Assembly (NCBI RefSeq): GCF_016583785.1
Contig: NZ_NRRU01000006.1
Coordinates: 1 to 64,000, forward strand
Source: Rubrivivax gelatinosus
GTDB taxonomy: Bacteria; Pseudomonadota; Gammaproteobacteria; Burkholderiales; Burkholderiaceae_C
Direction of reading: 5' to 3'
DNA: 64,000 nt
In this document: in pieces, positions 45,814 to 54,101 of the stretch
Position numbering within the stretch: position 1 is the stretch's first letter
Layout of the letters: each line of letters starts with the position of its first letter
Notes under the pieces: generated by a model
The model's input: the letters and a program-made list of their open reading frames with translations, nothing else
Database searches by the model: none
What the model was told of the DNA's origin: nothing
Program-made: the position numbers and the translations under genes

Positions 45814-47133
45814 TCAATCCACCTTTGCCACCGCGGGTTCGACATACAGGCGCGGCGTCGCGGTGGCACGCGGCCGGGCATCGATCTTGGCCGCCAGGAA
45901 AGCGGACAGCACGAACAGCAGCGCCTCGAAGGCGAAGACGCTGGAATAGGCGACGGAAGCTTCGCCCAGAAGCCAGTGCGCGAGGTCGCTGGCGCCGGTG
46001 CCGACGACTCCGCCCAGGCCGAAGGCCACGGCCTGAGCCGCGCCCCAGAGCCCCATGCGCACGCCTTCGCGGCCCTGCTTGCCCTCGCCGGCCAGGCGCA
46101 TCATCGAACCGACGGCGGCGATCGAGAACGCGCCGTTGGCCACGCCGAGCAGGAACACCGTCGGCGTGAACGGCCAGCCGGGGCCGACGATGCCGGCCGC
46201 GACCAGCGACCCCAGGCAGAGCGCCGACGCGATGCAGCCGCCGACGGACCAGGCGCGCAGCGTGCCGAAACGCTGGCCGGCGAGCGCGACCAGGATCATC
46301 CCGGCGAGCACACCGCCGTGCTGCATGCCCGACAGCGAAGTCGACTCGCCCGGCGTGAACCCGAAGACGGTGCCGGCAAAGGGCTCCAGGATCAGGTCCT
46401 GGGCGCTGAAGGCCAGCATCGAGACGAAGATGAAGATCGTGAAGCGGCGCGCGTCGGTCTCCGACCAGACCTCGGCCAGCACCTGGCGGAAGTCGGGCTT
46501 GGCCTCGGCATCGGCCACCGGTGCCCGGCCTTCGCCTTCGACGCCGTAGAGCGCGATCGTCGCCAGCACGAAGGCCAGCACGGCGACGCCGGTCACGACA
46601 GCCATCAGGCGTGCCGACGAATAAGGGTCCAGCAGCTTGCCGGCGACGCCGGCGGTCACGGCCAGGCCGACGATCATCATCATCCAGACGATGGTCGCGG
46701 CCGGCGCCCGCCGGCTCTCGTGCACACGCTGCGCCAGCAGCACCAGCAGCGAGGTGCCGGCCGCGCCGACGCCCAGGCCGATGACGACGAAGGAGACGAA
46801 GGCGGCGACGATGCCCGGCACACGCGCCACCGGCATCAACGCCACCGAAGCCGCGGCGCCGATGCCGCCGACGGCCAGCACCGCCAGCCCGCCGATGATC
46901 CAGGGCGTGCGCCGGCCGCCGACGTCGGAGCCGAAGCCCATGCGCGGGCGCAGCATCTGCACCATGTAGTGCACCGCGACCAGCAGCCCCGGCAGCAGCG
47001 CCGGCAGCGCCAGCTCGACGACCATGATGCGGTTGAGCGTCGAAGTCGTCAGCACCACCATCGCGCCGATGCAGGCCTGCACCAGCCCGAGGCGGACGAC
47101 GGAGACCCAGCCGAAGTCCGGGCCCCGGCTCAC
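45814..47133 (-). CDS. PucC-family (BCD) membrane protein
   Basis: A 439-residue MFS-like protein with about 12 transmembrane segments. Family marks are STLNRIMVVELALPALLPG, the RPRMGFGSDVGGRRTPWI loop and AFSAQDLILEPFAGTVFG. It equals the gene usually found between bchG and bchP in purple bacteria (called orf427 in Rhodobacter), proposed to move or hold (bacterio)chlorophyll for pigment-protein assembly. It starts at a GTG overlapping the bchG stop (GTGA). Confidence 0.9.
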   Translation of the reverse strand: MSRGPDFGWVSVVRLGLVQACIGAMVVLTTSTLNRIMVVELALPALLPGLLVAVHYMVQMLRPRMGFGSDVGGRRTPWIIGGLAVLAVGGIGAAASVALMPVARVPGIVAAFVSFVVIGLGVGAAGTSLLVLLAQRVHESRRAPAATIVWMMMIVGLAVTAGVAGKLLDPYSSARLMAVVTGVAVLAFVLATIALYGVEGEGRAPVADAEAKPDFRQVLAEVWSETDARRFTIFIFVSMLAFSAQDLILEPFAGTVFGFTPGESTSLSGMQHGGVLAGMILVALAGQRFGTLRAWSVGGCIASALCLGSLVAAGIVGPGWPFTPTVFLLGVANGAFSIAAVGSMMRLAGEGKQGREGVRMGLWGAAQAVAFGLGGVVGTGASDLAHWLLGEASVAYSSVFAFEALLFVLSAFLAAKIDARPRATATPRLYVEPAVAKVD

Positions 47134-48014
47134 GCGCCGCCCCCGGTGACGCGCAGCGCGAACGCGCTGACCATCATGCCGCTGACGAACAGCGGCACAC
47201 CGAAGCCGCTGTAGAACAGCGCGCGCTTGACCGGGTCCTTCAGGAACCAGGCCATCAGCACGCCCTGGGCGACGAGCAGCGCGCCGATCGCGGTGGCATG
47301 CCAGGGCGCACCCCACTGCACCAGCATCGCGATGACGACGACCTGCGGCACCGCCATCACGAAGCAGGCGGTGCGCGCGGCGCCGTCGACGCCCAGGCGC
47401 ACCGGCAGCGAGCCGACGCCCATCTTCTTGTCGCCTTCGATCGCCTTGAAGTCGTTGAGCGTCATGATGCCGTGCGCACCCAGGCTGTAGAGCAGCGCCA
47501 GCGCCAGCGAATGCGAGGCCGGCATCGCGCCGCCGGCCATCACCGCAGCACCGGTGACCCAGGCCAGGCCTTCGTACGAGATGCCGCAGGCGGCGTTGCC
47601 CCACCAGCCGTTCTGCTTGAGCCGCAGCGGCGGCGCGCTATAGGCCCAGGCGAGGATCAGGCCGAGCACCGCAGCACCGAAGCCCCAGGGTCCGAGCTGC
47701 GTGGCCACGACCAGCGACAGCACGGTCCAGCCGATGGCGATGTACAAGCCCCAGCGGCCGGGTATGCGGCCGCTGGGGATCGGGCGGTTGGGCTCGTTGA
47801 TCGCGTCGACGTGGCGGTCGAACCAGTCGTTGACGGCCTGGCTGGTCGCGCAGACCAGCGGCCCCGCGAGCAGCACGCCGAGGAAGACGAGGATCCAGTT
47901 CGCCGTGATCGGCTGTCCCGATGCGACCACGCCGCACGAGAAAGCCCACATCGGGGGGAACCAGGTAATCGGTTTGAGCAACTCCGCTACAGCGGACAAC
48001 GCGGGCCTTGCCAT
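47130..48014 (-). CDS. bchG: Bacteriochlorophyll a synthase (geranylgeranyl/phytyl transferase)
   Basis: A 294-residue UbiA-family prenyltransferase with about eight transmembrane segments. The prenyl-diphosphate site is NDWFDRHVDAINEPNRPIPS. It attaches geranylgeranyl to bacteriochlorophyllide a. The ATG at 48014 (MARPALSAVAELLKPITWF) is preferred over the in-frame TTG at 48038. Its predicted -35 (TTGACG) lies inside the PpsR-type palindrome shared with crtI, and the -10 (about 48023-48028) is only 8 bases from the ATG. Confidence 0.95.
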   Translation of the reverse strand: MARPALSAVAELLKPITWFPPMWAFSCGVVASGQPITANWILVFLGVLLAGPLVCATSQAVNDWFDRHVDAINEPNRPIPSGRIPGRWGLYIAIGWTVLSLVVATQLGPWGFGAAVLGLILAWAYSAPPLRLKQNGWWGNAACGISYEGLAWVTGAAVMAGGAMPASHSLALALLYSLGAHGIMTLNDFKAIEGDKKMGVGSLPVRLGVDGAARTACFVMAVPQVVVIAMLVQWGAPWHATAIGALLVAQGVLMAWFLKDPVKRALFYSGFGVPLFVSGMMVSAFALRVTGGGA

Positions 48015-48045
48015 GGGGCTGAATCTTGCGCTTGACAAAACAGAG

Positions 48046-48063
48046 CGTCAATTGTCGTTGACA
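48046..48063. promoter_or_regulatory. PpsR/CrtJ-type palindrome between bchG and crtI
   Basis: CGTCAATTGTCGTTGACA is TGTC-N10-GACG on the minus strand, one base off the PpsR/CrtJ consensus TGT-N12-ACA. Its arms are TTGACG (minus, -35 of bchG) and TTGACA (plus, -35 of crtI), so a bound dimer would occlude both promoters. Confidence 0.7.
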
Positions 48064-48092: not shown

Positions 48093-49637
48093 ATGCTGAT
48101 GAAGTCGGATGCCGCAGCCACAGGCGCGGCCGGAAAGCAGGATCGGGTTGCGCCGGTGGCGCTGGTGGTGGGAAGCGGGTTCGGCGGCATGGCCGCGGCG
48201 ATCCGCCTGGCCGCCAAGGGCTACCGCGTCACCATTCTGGAAAAGCTCGACGCCCCGGGCGGGCGCGCCTACGTGCACCGGCGCGAGGGCCACGTCTTCG
48301 ACGCCGGCCCGACCATCGTCACCGTGCCCTATCTCTTCGACGAGCTGTGGGCGCTGGCCGGGCGCAAGTTCAGCGACGACATCGAGCTGAAGTCGCTGGA
48401 CCCGTTCTACCGCATCCGCTTCGACGACGGCGACCACTTCGACTACAGCGGCGACCCGGCGCGCATGCGCGCCGAAGTGCGCCGCATCTGCCCGTCCGAC
48501 GCCGAAGGTTTCGAGCGCTTCATGCGCGAGGCCGACCAGTGCTACGAGCTGGGTTTCCGCACGCTGGGCGACAAGGCCTTCGACACCATCGGCGACCTGA
48601 TCAAGGCGGCGCCGCTGATCGTCAAGCTGCGCGGCTGGCGCAGCCTGCACCAGATGGTTTCGAGCCATCTGAAGCACCCCAAGCTGCGCATCGCGATGAG
48701 CCTGCAGTCGCTGCTGATCGGCGGCAACCCGTTCTCGGTGACGAGCATGTACGCGCTCGTCAACGCGCTCGAGCGCCAATGGGGCGTGCACTGGGCGATG
48801 GGCGGCACCGGCGAGCTGATCCGCGGCCTGGTCGACGTCTTCGAAGGCATGGGTGGCACGCTGCGGCTGAAGTCCGAGGTCAGCCGCATCGAGATCGACA
48901 ACGGCGTCGCCACCGGCGTGACGCTGGCCGACGGCGAGCGCATCGCCGCCGACATCGTCGTCTGCAACGGCGACACCGGCCACGTCTACAAGCACCTGGT
49001 CGACGCCCGCTGGCGCAAGCACTGGACCGACCAGCGCATCGAGCGCGGCCACTACTCGATGGGCCTGTTCGTCTGGTACTTCGGCACCGACCGACGCTAC
49101 GAGGACGTGCCGCACCACATGATGGTGCTGGGCCCGCGCTACCGCGAACTGCTGCAGGACATCTTCAAACGCAAGAAGCTGGCCGGCGACTTCAGCATCT
49201 ACCTGCACCGCCCGACCGCCACCGACCCGTCGATGGCGCCTGAGGGCTGCGACACCTTCTACGCGCTGATGCCGGTGCCGCACCTGGACAGCGGCACCGA
49301 CTGGGAGACCCAGGCCGAGCCCTATCGCCAGTCGGTCCAGGAGGCACTGGAGCGCACCGTGCTGCCGGGCCTGGGCCAGCACCTGCGGGTGTCGTTCTGC
49401 ACCACGCCGCTGGACTTCAAGCACCGGCTGCTGTCGTACAAGGGCGCCGGCTTCGGCCTGGAGCCGCTGCTGTTGCAGAGCGCCTACTTCCGCCCGCACA
49501 ACCGCAGCGAGGACGTGAAGAACCTGTTCATGGTCGGCGCCAGCACCCACCCGGGCGCCGGCGTGCCGGGCGTGATCATGTCGGCCAAGGCGCTGGAGTC
49601 GGTGCTGCCCGACCCGGCGACGTTCGGGCGGCGCTGA
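48093..49637 (+). CDS. crtI: Phytoene desaturase (carotenoid dehydrogenase)
   Basis: A 514-residue FAD protein. The dinucleotide fold VALVVGSGFGGMAAAIRLA lies near residues 22-40, then GGRAYVHRREGHVFDAGPT. The C-terminal signature QSAYFRPHNRSED plus FMVGASTHPGAGVPGVIMS is that of CrtI rather than CrtD. It introduces double bonds into phytoene, giving neurosporene and/or lycopene. The ATG at 48093 has AGGA 12 bases upstream, and an ATG at 48099 is an alternative. No crtB is adjacent. Confidence 0.9.
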   Translation: MLMKSDAAATGAAGKQDRVAPVALVVGSGFGGMAAAIRLAAKGYRVTILEKLDAPGGRAYVHRREGHVFDAGPTIVTVPYLFDELWALAGRKFSDDIELKSLDPFYRIRFDDGDHFDYSGDPARMRAEVRRICPSDAEGFERFMREADQCYELGFRTLGDKAFDTIGDLIKAAPLIVKLRGWRSLHQMVSSHLKHPKLRIAMSLQSLLIGGNPFSVTSMYALVNALERQWGVHWAMGGTGELIRGLVDVFEGMGGTLRLKSEVSRIEIDNGVATGVTLADGERIAADIVVCNGDTGHVYKHLVDARWRKHWTDQRIERGHYSMGLFVWYFGTDRRYEDVPHHMMVLGPRYRELLQDIFKRKKLAGDFSIYLHRPTATDPSMAPEGCDTFYALMPVPHLDSGTDWETQAEPYRQSVQEALERTVLPGLGQHLRVSFCTTPLDFKHRLLSYKGAGFGLEPLLLQSAYFRPHNRSEDVKNLFMVGASTHPGAGVPGVIMSAKALESVLPDPATFGRR

Positions 49638-49679: not shown

Positions 49680-51134
49680 CTATTTCTCGGCTTCGGCCGG
49701 CGTGCCGCTGCCCAGGTCGCCCAGGCCGTAGCGGCGCAGCTTGACGTACAGGCTCTGGCGCGACAGGCCCAGCATTTCCGCCGCCGACGCGCGGTTGTCG
49801 CGCGTGAGTTCGAGCGCGGCCTCGATGCACAGCTGCTCGATCAGGTCGGTGGTCTCGCCGACGATGTCCTTCAGCGGCACCCGGCCGACGAGTTCGGTCA
49901 GTTGCCCAACCGAACGCGGCAGCTCGCGCGTCGTGCGTGCGTCGTGGCCCGCCAGGCGGCGGCCGACGTCGCGGATCGTGAAGCCCAGGAAGGGCCGGTC
50001 GCCCGGCGCCACCATCGTCGCCGAGATCTCGACGTCGGTGACGGCGCCGTATTCGCCACGCAGCGTGGTCGCGAACAGGCGCACCTGGCCGCGCTGGCGC
50101 AGGTTGGAGATCATCACGCTCAGGTCGACACCGGTGCGGCCGAGCCAGCGGTCCAGCGTCTCGCCGCGCACCTGCTCCTCGGTCGTCAGCTGAGCCAGCT
50201 CGACGAAAGCCGGGTTGGCCGAGATCACCCGGCCTTCGAGATCGGTGACGACCAGGCAGTCGGGTGCGCTCTGCACCAGCTTGAGCAGCATCGAGCCGGT
50301 CGACGGCGCCACCTCGGTGCTGACCTGCGACTGCACGCGCGACAGGCGCACGAGGAAGTGCGAAACCAGGTCCTGGCGGTAGGTCGAGACTGCCACCGTG
50401 ACCTCGCCGCGGGCGTCCGACAGCTCGGCCCGACCCTCGTCGGCACGGCCGGTGGCACGCACGCCGGCCAGCAGCAGGTTGAGCTGCTCGGCGCCGTGCG
50501 CATCGACGCCGGTCGGGAAGGCCAGCCCGACCAGGCTGCCGGTGCCGCCTTCGGCGAGCAGCCGGGTCGCGGCCGGGTTGGCTTCAAGGATCTTCTGCGT
50601 CGTCGCGTCGACGACGAGCACGGCTTCGGACGCCACCTGGAACAGGTGGCGGTAACGGGTCTCGGCGTGGCGGAACTTCCAGTAGTCGCGCTCCATCGCC
50701 TGCTGCGCCTCGACCAGGCGCTGCTGCAACGCAGCCACCGCGCGCAGGTCGCGGCCGAAGCCGAGCACGGTGCCGCCACGGCCTTCACTGCCTCCGAGGC
50801 GCACGGCGACGAAGAGCAAGGGCACTTCGCGCTCGCCGGAGAGCACGAAATTCAGGTGGCGCCAGCGGATCGGGCCGACCGCATCGGGCGCGGCCTCGCG
50901 CAGCAGGGCCTCGACCTTGTCGCGGCTTTCCGGCGTGACGACGTCGATCCAGCGCTTGTCGATCCACTCCGCACCCGCCTCGCGCGCGAAGTCATCGCTG
51001 CTGCAGGCGAGATCGCGCACGACGCCATGGGCGTCGACCACCAGCGTAATGTCGTTCGCAACCGACAACAGCGCCCCGGCCGTCTCGGCGTTCACGCCGC
51101 CGAACGTCTTCTCCGGTGCTCCAAACGGTCTCAT
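49680..51134 (-). CDS. ppsR: Photosynthesis gene regulator PpsR/CrtJ
   Basis: A 484-residue redox-responsive transcription factor with tandem PAS domains (about residues 20-125, 155-270 and 275-400) and a C-terminal FIS-type helix-turn-helix (RDNRASAAEMLGLSRQSLYV then KLRRYGLG). A cysteine just before the helix-turn-helix (LIEQLCIEAALELT) is at the position of the redox-active CrtJ cysteine, and another is in the PAS region (SAPDCLVVTD). It binds TGT-N12-ACA sites at bch, crt and puc promoters. It follows aerR, with a 100-base gap that has its own ribosome-binding site (AAAGGCGGG). Confidence 0.95.
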   Translation of the reverse strand: MRPFGAPEKTFGGVNAETAGALLSVANDITLVVDAHGVVRDLACSSDDFAREAGAEWIDKRWIDVVTPESRDKVEALLREAAPDAVGPIRWRHLNFVLSGEREVPLLFVAVRLGGSEGRGGTVLGFGRDLRAVAALQQRLVEAQQAMERDYWKFRHAETRYRHLFQVASEAVLVVDATTQKILEANPAATRLLAEGGTGSLVGLAFPTGVDAHGAEQLNLLLAGVRATGRADEGRAELSDARGEVTVAVSTYRQDLVSHFLVRLSRVQSQVSTEVAPSTGSMLLKLVQSAPDCLVVTDLEGRVISANPAFVELAQLTTEEQVRGETLDRWLGRTGVDLSVMISNLRQRGQVRLFATTLRGEYGAVTDVEISATMVAPGDRPFLGFTIRDVGRRLAGHDARTTRELPRSVGQLTELVGRVPLKDIVGETTDLIEQLCIEAALELTRDNRASAAEMLGLSRQSLYVKLRRYGLGDLGSGTPAEAEK

Positions 51135-51234: not shown

Positions 51235-52074
51235 TCATCGTCGGCCCACTCTTGCGGCGACGAGCCGCGAGGCCAGCGCCGGCGCATCGCGTGCGTCGTT
51301 CGCGGTGCCGTCGGCACCGACTTCCGCCGCCCGCTCGGGGTCGGCAGCAAACACCGGGCCACCGACCAACACCGCGAGGGCGCGGTTGCGGGAAGCGCGG
51401 CGCATCGTCGTGATGCCTTCGCGCAGCCGGTCCAGCCGCGCCTCGACACCGACGGAGATGCCGACGACGTCGAACCACTCGCGCCGCAGGCGGCGCACCG
51501 GGTCGATCGAACGGCTGTCCAGTTCGCAGACCACTTCCCAGCCGGCCTGGCGAAAGAACTCCGCCACCATCGACAGGCCGAAGGTGTGCTGCTCGCCGGC
51601 AGCCGGCAGCAACAGCGCCCGGTGGCCGTCGACCGGCAGCTGGTGGTCGTGTCCGAGCGAGGGGCTCAGCCCACGCATGATGCGGTGCAGGCGCCCGAGC
51701 GCGACGGTGACGTCGCTGAACATCACCAGGTCCTGCTCCCACATCTGGCCGAGCTGGCGCGCAGCCGGGGCGAGCAGATCAAGATAGATGGACTCGACCG
51801 GCACGCCGCGCTCGCGCAACTGGACGATGGTCGCGGTCCAGCCGGCGTCACCCGATGCGAGCACGCACTCGACGAATGCCGGCAGCTCCTCCGGCGCGAG
51901 CGAGTCCTCACGTCCGGCCTGGGCAGCGCGCGCGACCAGGGGCGCGAACTCGCTCTCGATGCTGCGCACGATGCGCGCGAAAGGCTCGGGCAGGCGACGG
52001 ACGCCGGCGTCCGTCTGCTCGCCTTCGACGACCGAAGCCCGCTCGGCCCTCGCGGCGCAGACGGCCGGGCTCAC
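51235..52074 (-). CDS. aerR: AerR/PpaA antirepressor with B12-binding domain
   Basis: A 279-residue protein from the GTG at 52074, which has GGAG 7 bases upstream. A helical region (about 30-150) precedes a cobalamin-binding fold (about 150-270) with GEQHTFGLSMVAEFFRQAGW, including the conserved histidine, and VVGISVGVEARLDRL. AerR/PpaA family proteins bind B12 and modify PpsR/CrtJ repression in response to light and oxygen. The frame stays open 65 codons further upstream, so a longer isoform from a non-ATG start is possible. Confidence 0.88.
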   Translation of the reverse strand: MSPAVCAARAERASVVEGEQTDAGVRRLPEPFARIVRSIESEFAPLVARAAQAGREDSLAPEELPAFVECVLASGDAGWTATIVQLRERGVPVESIYLDLLAPAARQLGQMWEQDLVMFSDVTVALGRLHRIMRGLSPSLGHDHQLPVDGHRALLLPAAGEQHTFGLSMVAEFFRQAGWEVVCELDSRSIDPVRRLRREWFDVVGISVGVEARLDRLREGITTMRRASRNRALAVLVGGPVFAADPERAAEVGADGTANDARDAPALASRLVAARVGRR

Positions 52075-52202
52075 GGTCGGGCTCCGCGCGACTGCGGGGC
52101 CTCGGCCGTATCCGGCGACGACGCACAGACGAGCACGCCCGCCGGGCGGCGCGCACGGCGCGTCAGCGGTACCGGTACTCCGGCGTCGATCATGGCGAGC
52201 AT
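52071..52202 (-). CDS. Upstream ORF overlapping the aerR start
   Basis: A 43-codon ORF from the ATG at 52202 (a second ATG at 52193) whose TGA overlaps the aerR GTG in a GTGA. AGGGG precedes the first ATG. The peptide (MLAMIDAGVPVPLTRRARR onward) resembles nothing I know and may serve only to couple translation to aerR. It may also be chance. Confidence 0.4.
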   Translation of the reverse strand: MLAMIDAGVPVPLTRRARRPAGVLVCASSPDTAEAPQSRGARP

Positions 52203-52240: not shown

Positions 52241-52304
52241 AGGGTAGTGTCAGGTTCGCATGACGTCAACCCCTGTTGACATCAGGGGTGTCCCCGCATA
52301 GATT
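52241..52304. promoter_or_regulatory. Divergent aerR/bchF promoters with two PpsR-type sites
   Basis: Site 1 is TGTCAGGTTCGCATGACG (52248-52265) and site 2 is CGTCAACCCCTGTTGACA (52264-52281). Both are TGTC-N10-GACG palindromes. bchF promoter: TTGACA (52276-52281), 17 bases, TAGATT (52299-52304). aerR promoter on minus: TTGACG (52269-52264), 17 bases, TACCCT (52246-52241). Both -35 boxes are the arms of site 2, and site 1 covers the aerR spacer. Confidence 0.75.
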
Positions 52305-52311
52305 CTGAGTC

Positions 52312-54101
<1,790 letters not shown>

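Follow-up and report, generated by a model that had tools for sequence, protein, structure and literature searches.

A candidate fused PpsR-type operator between the divergent bchF and aerR promoters of Rubrivivax

Control of photosynthesis genes by PpsR/CrtJ and by the B12-light antirepressor AerR has been worked out mainly in Rhodobacter, whose PpsR sites at bchF are separate. The aerR-bchF region of Rubrivivax gelatinosus carries two PpsR-type sites that overlap, and it raises the question of whether such a pair could serve as one operator for two divergent promoters and what its odd GACG half-sites signify. The window, i.e., the whole stretch of 64,000 nucleotides that was analysed, contains a Rubrivivax-like photosynthesis gene cluster; best-segment identity of its BchF was 89% to R. 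gelatinosus and 91% to R. benzoatilyticus. The following genes were annotated around the region:

47130-48038, minus strand: bchG (Pfam and NCBIfam)
48093-49637, plus strand: crtI (Pfam and NCBIfam)
49680-51134, minus strand: ppsR, downstream of aerR on the same strand (TIGR02040 PpsR-CrtJ, 673 bits vs. a cut-off of 275)
51235 to ~52074, minus strand: aerR, B12-binding antirepressor (B12-binding domain; no equivalog match over the cut-off)
52312-52821, plus strand: bchF (TIGR02020, Pfam and NCBIfam)

The PpsR protein of the window has PAS and Fis-type HTH domains, and the cognate regulator is thus encoded in the genome. The name aerR was given according to gene position and the literature on the aerR-ppsR pair, and comparison of three Rubrivivax species places its putative start at the GTG at 52074. 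An aerR frame reaching upstream of this codon is unlikely, with a stop present in that frame in R. gelatinosus. An Rfam search of the aerR leader for a cobalamin riboswitch returned nothing except a chance-level microRNA match. The leader also contains a small ORF (52071-52202, minus strand; approximately 36-43 codons from the leader ATG), which is open in the three Rubrivivax species and whose TGA overlaps the aerR GTG start (GTGA). The codon-position G+C signal of this ORF was absent in every frame in the three species; it may be a chance ORF or a translational coupling leader.

Between aerR and bchF, the following elements were delineated, the promoters being predicted:

52248-52281, no strand: composite PpsR-type operator TGT-N12-ACGT-N12-ACA, 34 bp, with the sequence TGTCAGGTTCGCATGACGTCAACCCCTGTTGACA (sole exact match in the 5.35-Mb genome; conserved at bchF)
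52248-52265, plus strand: palindrome 1, PpsR-type TGT-N12-ACG, over the aerR spacer (pattern and PWM, 14.6 bits, rank 6 in the 85-kb contig)
52264-52281, minus strand: palindrome 2, PpsR-type (cGT-N12-ACA on the plus strand), over the bchF -35 box (PWM 20.2 bits, rank 2 in the contig)
52263-52266, no strand: central ACGT, with the CG pair 52264-52265 common to both palindromes
52276-52281, plus strand: bchF -35 box TTGACA, coinciding with the operator right arm (conserved)
52299-52304, plus strand: bchF -10 box TAGATT, 17-bp spacer (TAnnnT at 17 bp in 93 of 106 aligned loci)
52269-52264, minus strand: aerR -35 box TTGACG, at the operator centre (TTGACG in 56 of 106 aligned loci)
52246-52241, minus strand: aerR -10 box TACCCT, 17-bp spacer (TAnnnT at 17 bp in 27 of 106 loci)

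A sequence-only reading of the locus had proposed TGTC-N10-GACG sites at 52248-52265 (plus strand) and 52264-52281 (minus strand) with a two-base overlap, and both were found exactly as placed. Each palindrome has five of the six core letters as well as the TGTCA/TTGACA extensions, and both read as 18-bp TGT-N12-ACA sites with a tolerant outer letter. Their centres lie 16 bp apart, approximately 1.5 helical turns. The classical tandem spacing of 8-9 bp between palindromes does not occur at aerR-bchF; the palindromes overlap by 2 bp instead.

The same reading took the site arms as -35 boxes of divergent promoters with 17-bp spacers. The aligned loci support this prediction strongly for bchF and moderately for aerR. 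On the bchF side, TAnnnT was found at other spacers in ten further loci (eight at 18 bp, one at 16 bp and one at 22 bp), and on the aerR side any other spacer tried, from 12 to 23 bp, accounted for at most 4 of the 106 loci. With only 6 bp between the bchF and aerR -35 boxes, simultaneous occupancy of both promoters is improbable. An in-frame bchF start codon lies 6-7 nt past the -10 box in 46 of the 106 loci, which suggests a leaderless bchF mRNA in many relatives. Among the other loci, the first in-frame start was more than 12 nt away in 37 and 2-5 nt away in 3, and the script found no in-frame bchF start before the aligned part in 20. In the window, the bchF ATG is 7 nt past the -10 box and an earlier start is excluded by the in-frame TGA at 52306-52308; the bchF mRNA is probably leaderless here.

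A perfect 21-bp inverted repeat, ACCCCTG-N7-CAGGGGT (52269-52289), surrounds the bchF -35 box in the three Rubrivivax species. None of 103 other aligned loci matched it at more than five of the seven arm positions. The bchF spacer is likewise almost invariant among the three species, so a second regulator may bind.

The reading that we favour, with a probability of about 0.78, is that the element acts as one fused PpsR operator common to the divergent promoters, repressing bchF and the ppsR-containing operon together. We infer binding and repression by PpsR at this element: bound at the right palindrome, PpsR would cover the bchF -35 box, and bound at the left palindrome, it would cover the aerR -35 box and spacer. 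A single operator would thereby repress the bchF operon and the ppsR operon (aerR-ppsR here), resulting in negative autoregulation; in species with AerR, this protein would lift or remodel PpsR binding. Co-occupancy is conceivable: compared with the N8 tandem, with its 26 bp between centres, the present 16 bp is shorter by one helical turn, and two dimers could again occupy opposite faces of the DNA. PpsR of R. sphaeroides forms dimers, tetramers and octamers (PMC3949515), and a CrtJ ChIP signal was reported upstream of R. capsulatus bchF (PMC5362033). Counted against the favoured reading is a report on Roseateles depolymerans, in which deletion of an RpoH-family sigma factor lowers bchF and has little effect on ppaA/ppsR (PMC10037100). 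As for the earlier proposal of PpsR-type sites on divergent -35 boxes beside aerR-ppsR, the sites are well supported, and the accompanying autoregulation of the ppsR operon is plausible, with ppsR itself divergent from bchF in Chromatiaceae.

Geometry also allows a choice switch, in which the overlap makes the sites mutually exclusive and one PpsR dimer sits on either the aerR or the bchF side. The palindromes share two base pairs, their inner arms abut and the -35 boxes are separated by only 6 bp. However, the 16 bp between centres would put dimers on opposite faces, the better score of the right site (20.2 vs. 14.6 bits) would bias the choice strongly, and the tetramers and octamers made by R. 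sphaeroides PpsR (PMC3949515) also speak against single-dimer occupancy. We regard such a switch as rather doubtful, at a probability of about one in four, and retain the fused operator with joint repression.

The arrangement differs from that of the neighbouring PpsR-type site in the window:

48020-48063, no strand: bchG-crtI tandem (TGa-N12-ACA)-N8-(cGT-N12-ACA), comprising TGAATCTTGCGCTTGACA, 8 bp and CGTCAATTGTCGTTGACA (from sequence; same arrangement footprinted in R. gelatinosus, PMC4452267)

The R. gelatinosus crtI tandem was reported, footprinted and gel-shifted with purified PpsR (PMC4452267). The suggestion that bchG-crtI has the same operator architecture as aerR-bchF did not hold: the site there is half of an N8 tandem, with no overlapping second site. 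A PWM built from other genera, without Rubrivivax, was used to scan the 85-kb contig, and its six top-ranking positions (48046, 52264, 80081, 82317, 80107 and 52248, in this order) are all intergenic. In 20 shuffled contigs, the top score had a mean of 11.9 and a maximum of 17.1. The sites at 52248 (14.6) and 80107 (15.3) are therefore not significant alone and are carried by their partners and by conservation. Sites 80081 and 80107 together form an N8 tandem, (cGT-N12-ACA)-N8-(TGT-N12-ACA), at positions 80081-80124 of the contig, upstream of a gene that is probably bchC, judging by its sequence and a bchX-like neighbour. A lone full palindrome, TGTCAACTGATTCTGACA, occurs at 82317-82334 between a crtE-like gene and a small cytochrome-like gene on the opposite strand (genes named by eye).

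Occurrence by chance was assessed for the bare pattern and for the composite. The window shows no enrichment of the bare 18-bp TGTC-N10-GACG pattern: there are 3 occurrences, all intergenic, vs. 4.3 expected. The exact composite was present once in the window, and 2 of 200 shuffled windows held one. Genome-wide, it occupies one place (aerR-bchF), and a reversed control pattern occupies two. The rarity of the composite alone thus proves little, and the case rests on conservation.

Among the three Rubrivivax species, 4 of 72 positions vary in the segment 52236-52307, and both flanks diverge. R. gelatinosus has exactly the same 34-bp element, and R. benzoatilyticus has it with a single base difference. 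For a broader comparison, bchF loci were collected in three sets. The first comprised 46 loci fetched besides the window, from the 47 of 299 genomes of the window's family that carry bchF; the second, the best 80 of 553 matching stretches in a BchF search of named genome contigs; and the third, loci from 26 of the 27 additional genomes with bchF that were found among 398 of the phylum, with one genome (G679) left out for having no locus.

The exact composite was found in 86 of 125 distinct bchF upstream regions (the window and the first two sets), and 20 more had 9 of 10 letters. It was likewise present in 11 of the 26 phylum loci; 9 of 10 letters were matched in 7 more, three of which (L176, L179 and L180) were rejected as composites by a 34-column score. 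Using this score, which was trained on exact matches of the same set (partly circular) with a cut-off of 16 that was our own choice, a composite was detected in 121 of the 150 alpha-, beta- and gammaproteobacterial bchF upstream regions that could be scored. The best of 60 shuffled regions scored -6.9, and one region was too short to score.

Palindrome pairs at offset 16 occurred in 86 of the 125 regions, whereas 100 shuffles gave 0.05 such regions on average and never more than 1; pairs at offset 15 were found in no region and at offset 17 in two. In a strict scan of 127 loci, 63 had the offset-16 pair upstream of bchF, and the pair turned up at one other place. This exception (L124) lies approximately 630 bp upstream of bchF, past the limit of the scan; the 34-column score subsequently classed it as a bchF composite. 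Because the strict filter overlooks degenerate tandems, the small number of 26-bp pairs that it returned is uninformative. Across the 299 family genomes, a 12-base form matched in 41 genomes, at 34 places at bchF (47 bchF-bearing genomes) and 7 elsewhere; its reversed control matched at 18 places in 17 genomes. The composite was also seen in the bchF loci of an Archangium MAG (L094) and a MAG titled Bordetella parapertussis (L130); these titles are ill-suited to phototrophs, and the sequences are probably mis-binned or mis-titled.

The two-base overlap offers an account of the GACG half-site. It means that both sites cannot be perfect, as one needs CA and the other TG at the shared positions. 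With CG in the overlap, the inner GT/AC letters of both sites are kept, and only the weakly conserved outer T/A is lost. Among bchF-promoter sites, whose counts are non-independent through descent (an independent-pairs test yielded 1 pair on supported branches), 109 start with C, and 105 of these have an overlapping partner (TGT at the partner position); among the 25 that start with T, a partner is missing in 21. By eye, a degenerate partner can be seen in three of the four C-type exceptions. This count covers 134 of 151 regions, the remaining 17 having no promoter-linked site by our rule, although 9 of those 17 are composites by score.

Degenerate arms are found elsewhere as well: upstream of the probable bchC (80081, same contig), at pucB and crtI of R. 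gelatinosus (PMC4452267), and at R. sphaeroides prrA, listed as CGTCAAAGGAAGTTGACA in a ChIP table (PMC4344238). The CrtJ ChIP motif is printed as tGTN12ACa, with a weak outer letter (PMC5362033). At R. gelatinosus crtI, changing both degenerate arms to the full motif strengthened binding, from an affinity of ~80 to one of 31 nM (PMC4452267). The notion of GACG replacing GACA as a local autoregulatory rule finds no support in these data, since the G follows the overlap (105/109 vs. 21/25) and the arm also occurs at promoters other than those of ppsR or aerR. Across the regions compared, GACG accompanies the overlap, not local autoregulation, and is neither new nor autoregulation-specific.

The composite was present in 104 of 125 regions with a divergent aerR adjoining bchF. 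A tie of the element to aerR was not upheld: of the 20 regions that were long enough to judge and had no adjoining aerR, 14 carry the element; six more regions were too short. In Chromatiaceae (Thiocapsa, Chromatium, Marichromatium, Thiorhodococcus and Thiocystis), ppsR is divergent from bchF and the composite is kept in 10 of 10 loci. The fetched stretches of these ten loci yielded no aerR, and the ppsR match begins roughly 290-600 bp away. The constant partner is thus the ppsR-holding operon rather than aerR. The Chromatiaceae composites (L084, L085, L088, L091, L092, L093, L102, L107, L125 and L126) have TTGACG instead of TTGACA as the right arm.

By score, the composite is absent in 29 of 150 regions, two of them just under the cut-off of 16 (14.5 and 13.8). 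These include all 14 Rhodobacter-type loci examined, namely 10 of 10 loci of one family (f55), Rhodobacter viridis, Rhodovulum robiginosum, a Rhodobacteraceae MAG and a Roseobacter MAG, which constitute one branch of the BchF tree (SH-aLRT 86). Family f55 was taken as Rhodobacter-like because it shares that branch. In place of the composite, each of the ten f55 loci contains two or more TGT-N12-ACA palindromes, complete and separate. Three loci of Polynucleobacter type and, within the window's family, a branch of five loci are also without it. In a branch of that family made up of L071-L074, aerR does not adjoin bchF, and a single full TGT-N12-ACA is found at bchF with no composite. On the BchF tree, which is weakly supported, the presence/absence label requires 8 changes vs. 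26.7 with shuffled labels; whole-cluster gene transfer would blur this reading.

These distributions bear on the idea that conservation merely reflects overlapping -35 boxes, TTGACA and TTGACG, with no repressor site. The right arm and centre do coincide with -35 boxes at the exact 17-bp spacing. However, the CAA of the left arm TGTCAA is conserved (0.88, 0.91, 0.71) even though it was not in the search pattern and lies outside both promoters' hexamers, a TGT-N12-ACA palindrome persists at the bchF -35 box in 20 of the 29 regions scored as lacking the composite, and the same PWM recovers the known crtI site and the tandem upstream of the probable bchC. We consider promoters without a repressor site improbable. 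Equally slim are the chances of the ACGT centre being a site of another regulator (RegA, AerR or other) between PpsR half-sites: the centre is often TTTACGTCAA, or TTTACGTAAA in 10 Chromatiaceae, and PrrA and MppG also act at R. sphaeroides bchF (PMC4263372), but ACGT stands exactly in the half-site register of both palindromes (offset 16, rather than 15 or 17), and the element persists at loci that yielded no aerR, against AerR as the reader of the centre.

The fused PpsR operator accounts for the odd GACG half-site and predicts a leaderless bchF mRNA in many species. Extending it, we tentatively suggest that the fused operator could be the older, widespread form of the divergon of bchF and the ppsR operon, with the separate Rhodobacter sites as a derived split. 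The fused form might then work as one homeostatic switch, through opposite-face dimers, polymerase competition between the closely spaced promoters and a bchF mRNA without a leader. This single 34-bp element would pit the repressor operon against the first bacteriochlorophyll operon, and in species that have AerR it would be tuned by that protein together with vitamin B12. If many purple bacteria use a fused operator, the independent-site picture does not transfer to them; if true, one short DNA fragment would suffice to test how pigment synthesis and the regulators of that synthesis feed back on each other. In open-licence papers, we found no description of an overlapping PpsR composite, of the cross-class layout or of the Rubrivivax aerR-bchF region.

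Tandem operators with 8- or 9-bp spacing, such as those at R. capsulatus bchC and at R. gelatinosus crtI and pucB, resemble the element in having two TGT-N12-ACA-type palindromes on a promoter, tolerant outer letters and approximately the same helical phase (PMC5362033, PMC6199135, PMC4452267). They differ in that their centres are 26-27 bp apart, whereas the aerR-bchF element has 16 bp between centres, a 2-bp overlap and two divergent promoters. The bchF-ppaA regions of Dinoroseobacter shibae (PMC10890935) and R. sphaeroides (PMC4344238) have the same divergent pair, with PpsR sites on the bchF -35 box. In D. shibae, half-site changes at bchF derepress this gene, and the ppaA promoter drives a single operon of ppaA and ppsR; from the mutated positions given, the starts of motifs 1 and 2 can be calculated to lie 34 bp from each other (PMC10890935). 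In R. sphaeroides, PpsR ChIP showed binding upstream of both ppaA and bchF (PMC4344238). In contrast to the Rubrivivax element, the sites described for these two species are separate, complete and unfused. The PpsR operator itself is thus known; what appears to be new is the fused geometry, to which the best-studied lineage, Rhodobacter, is the exception.
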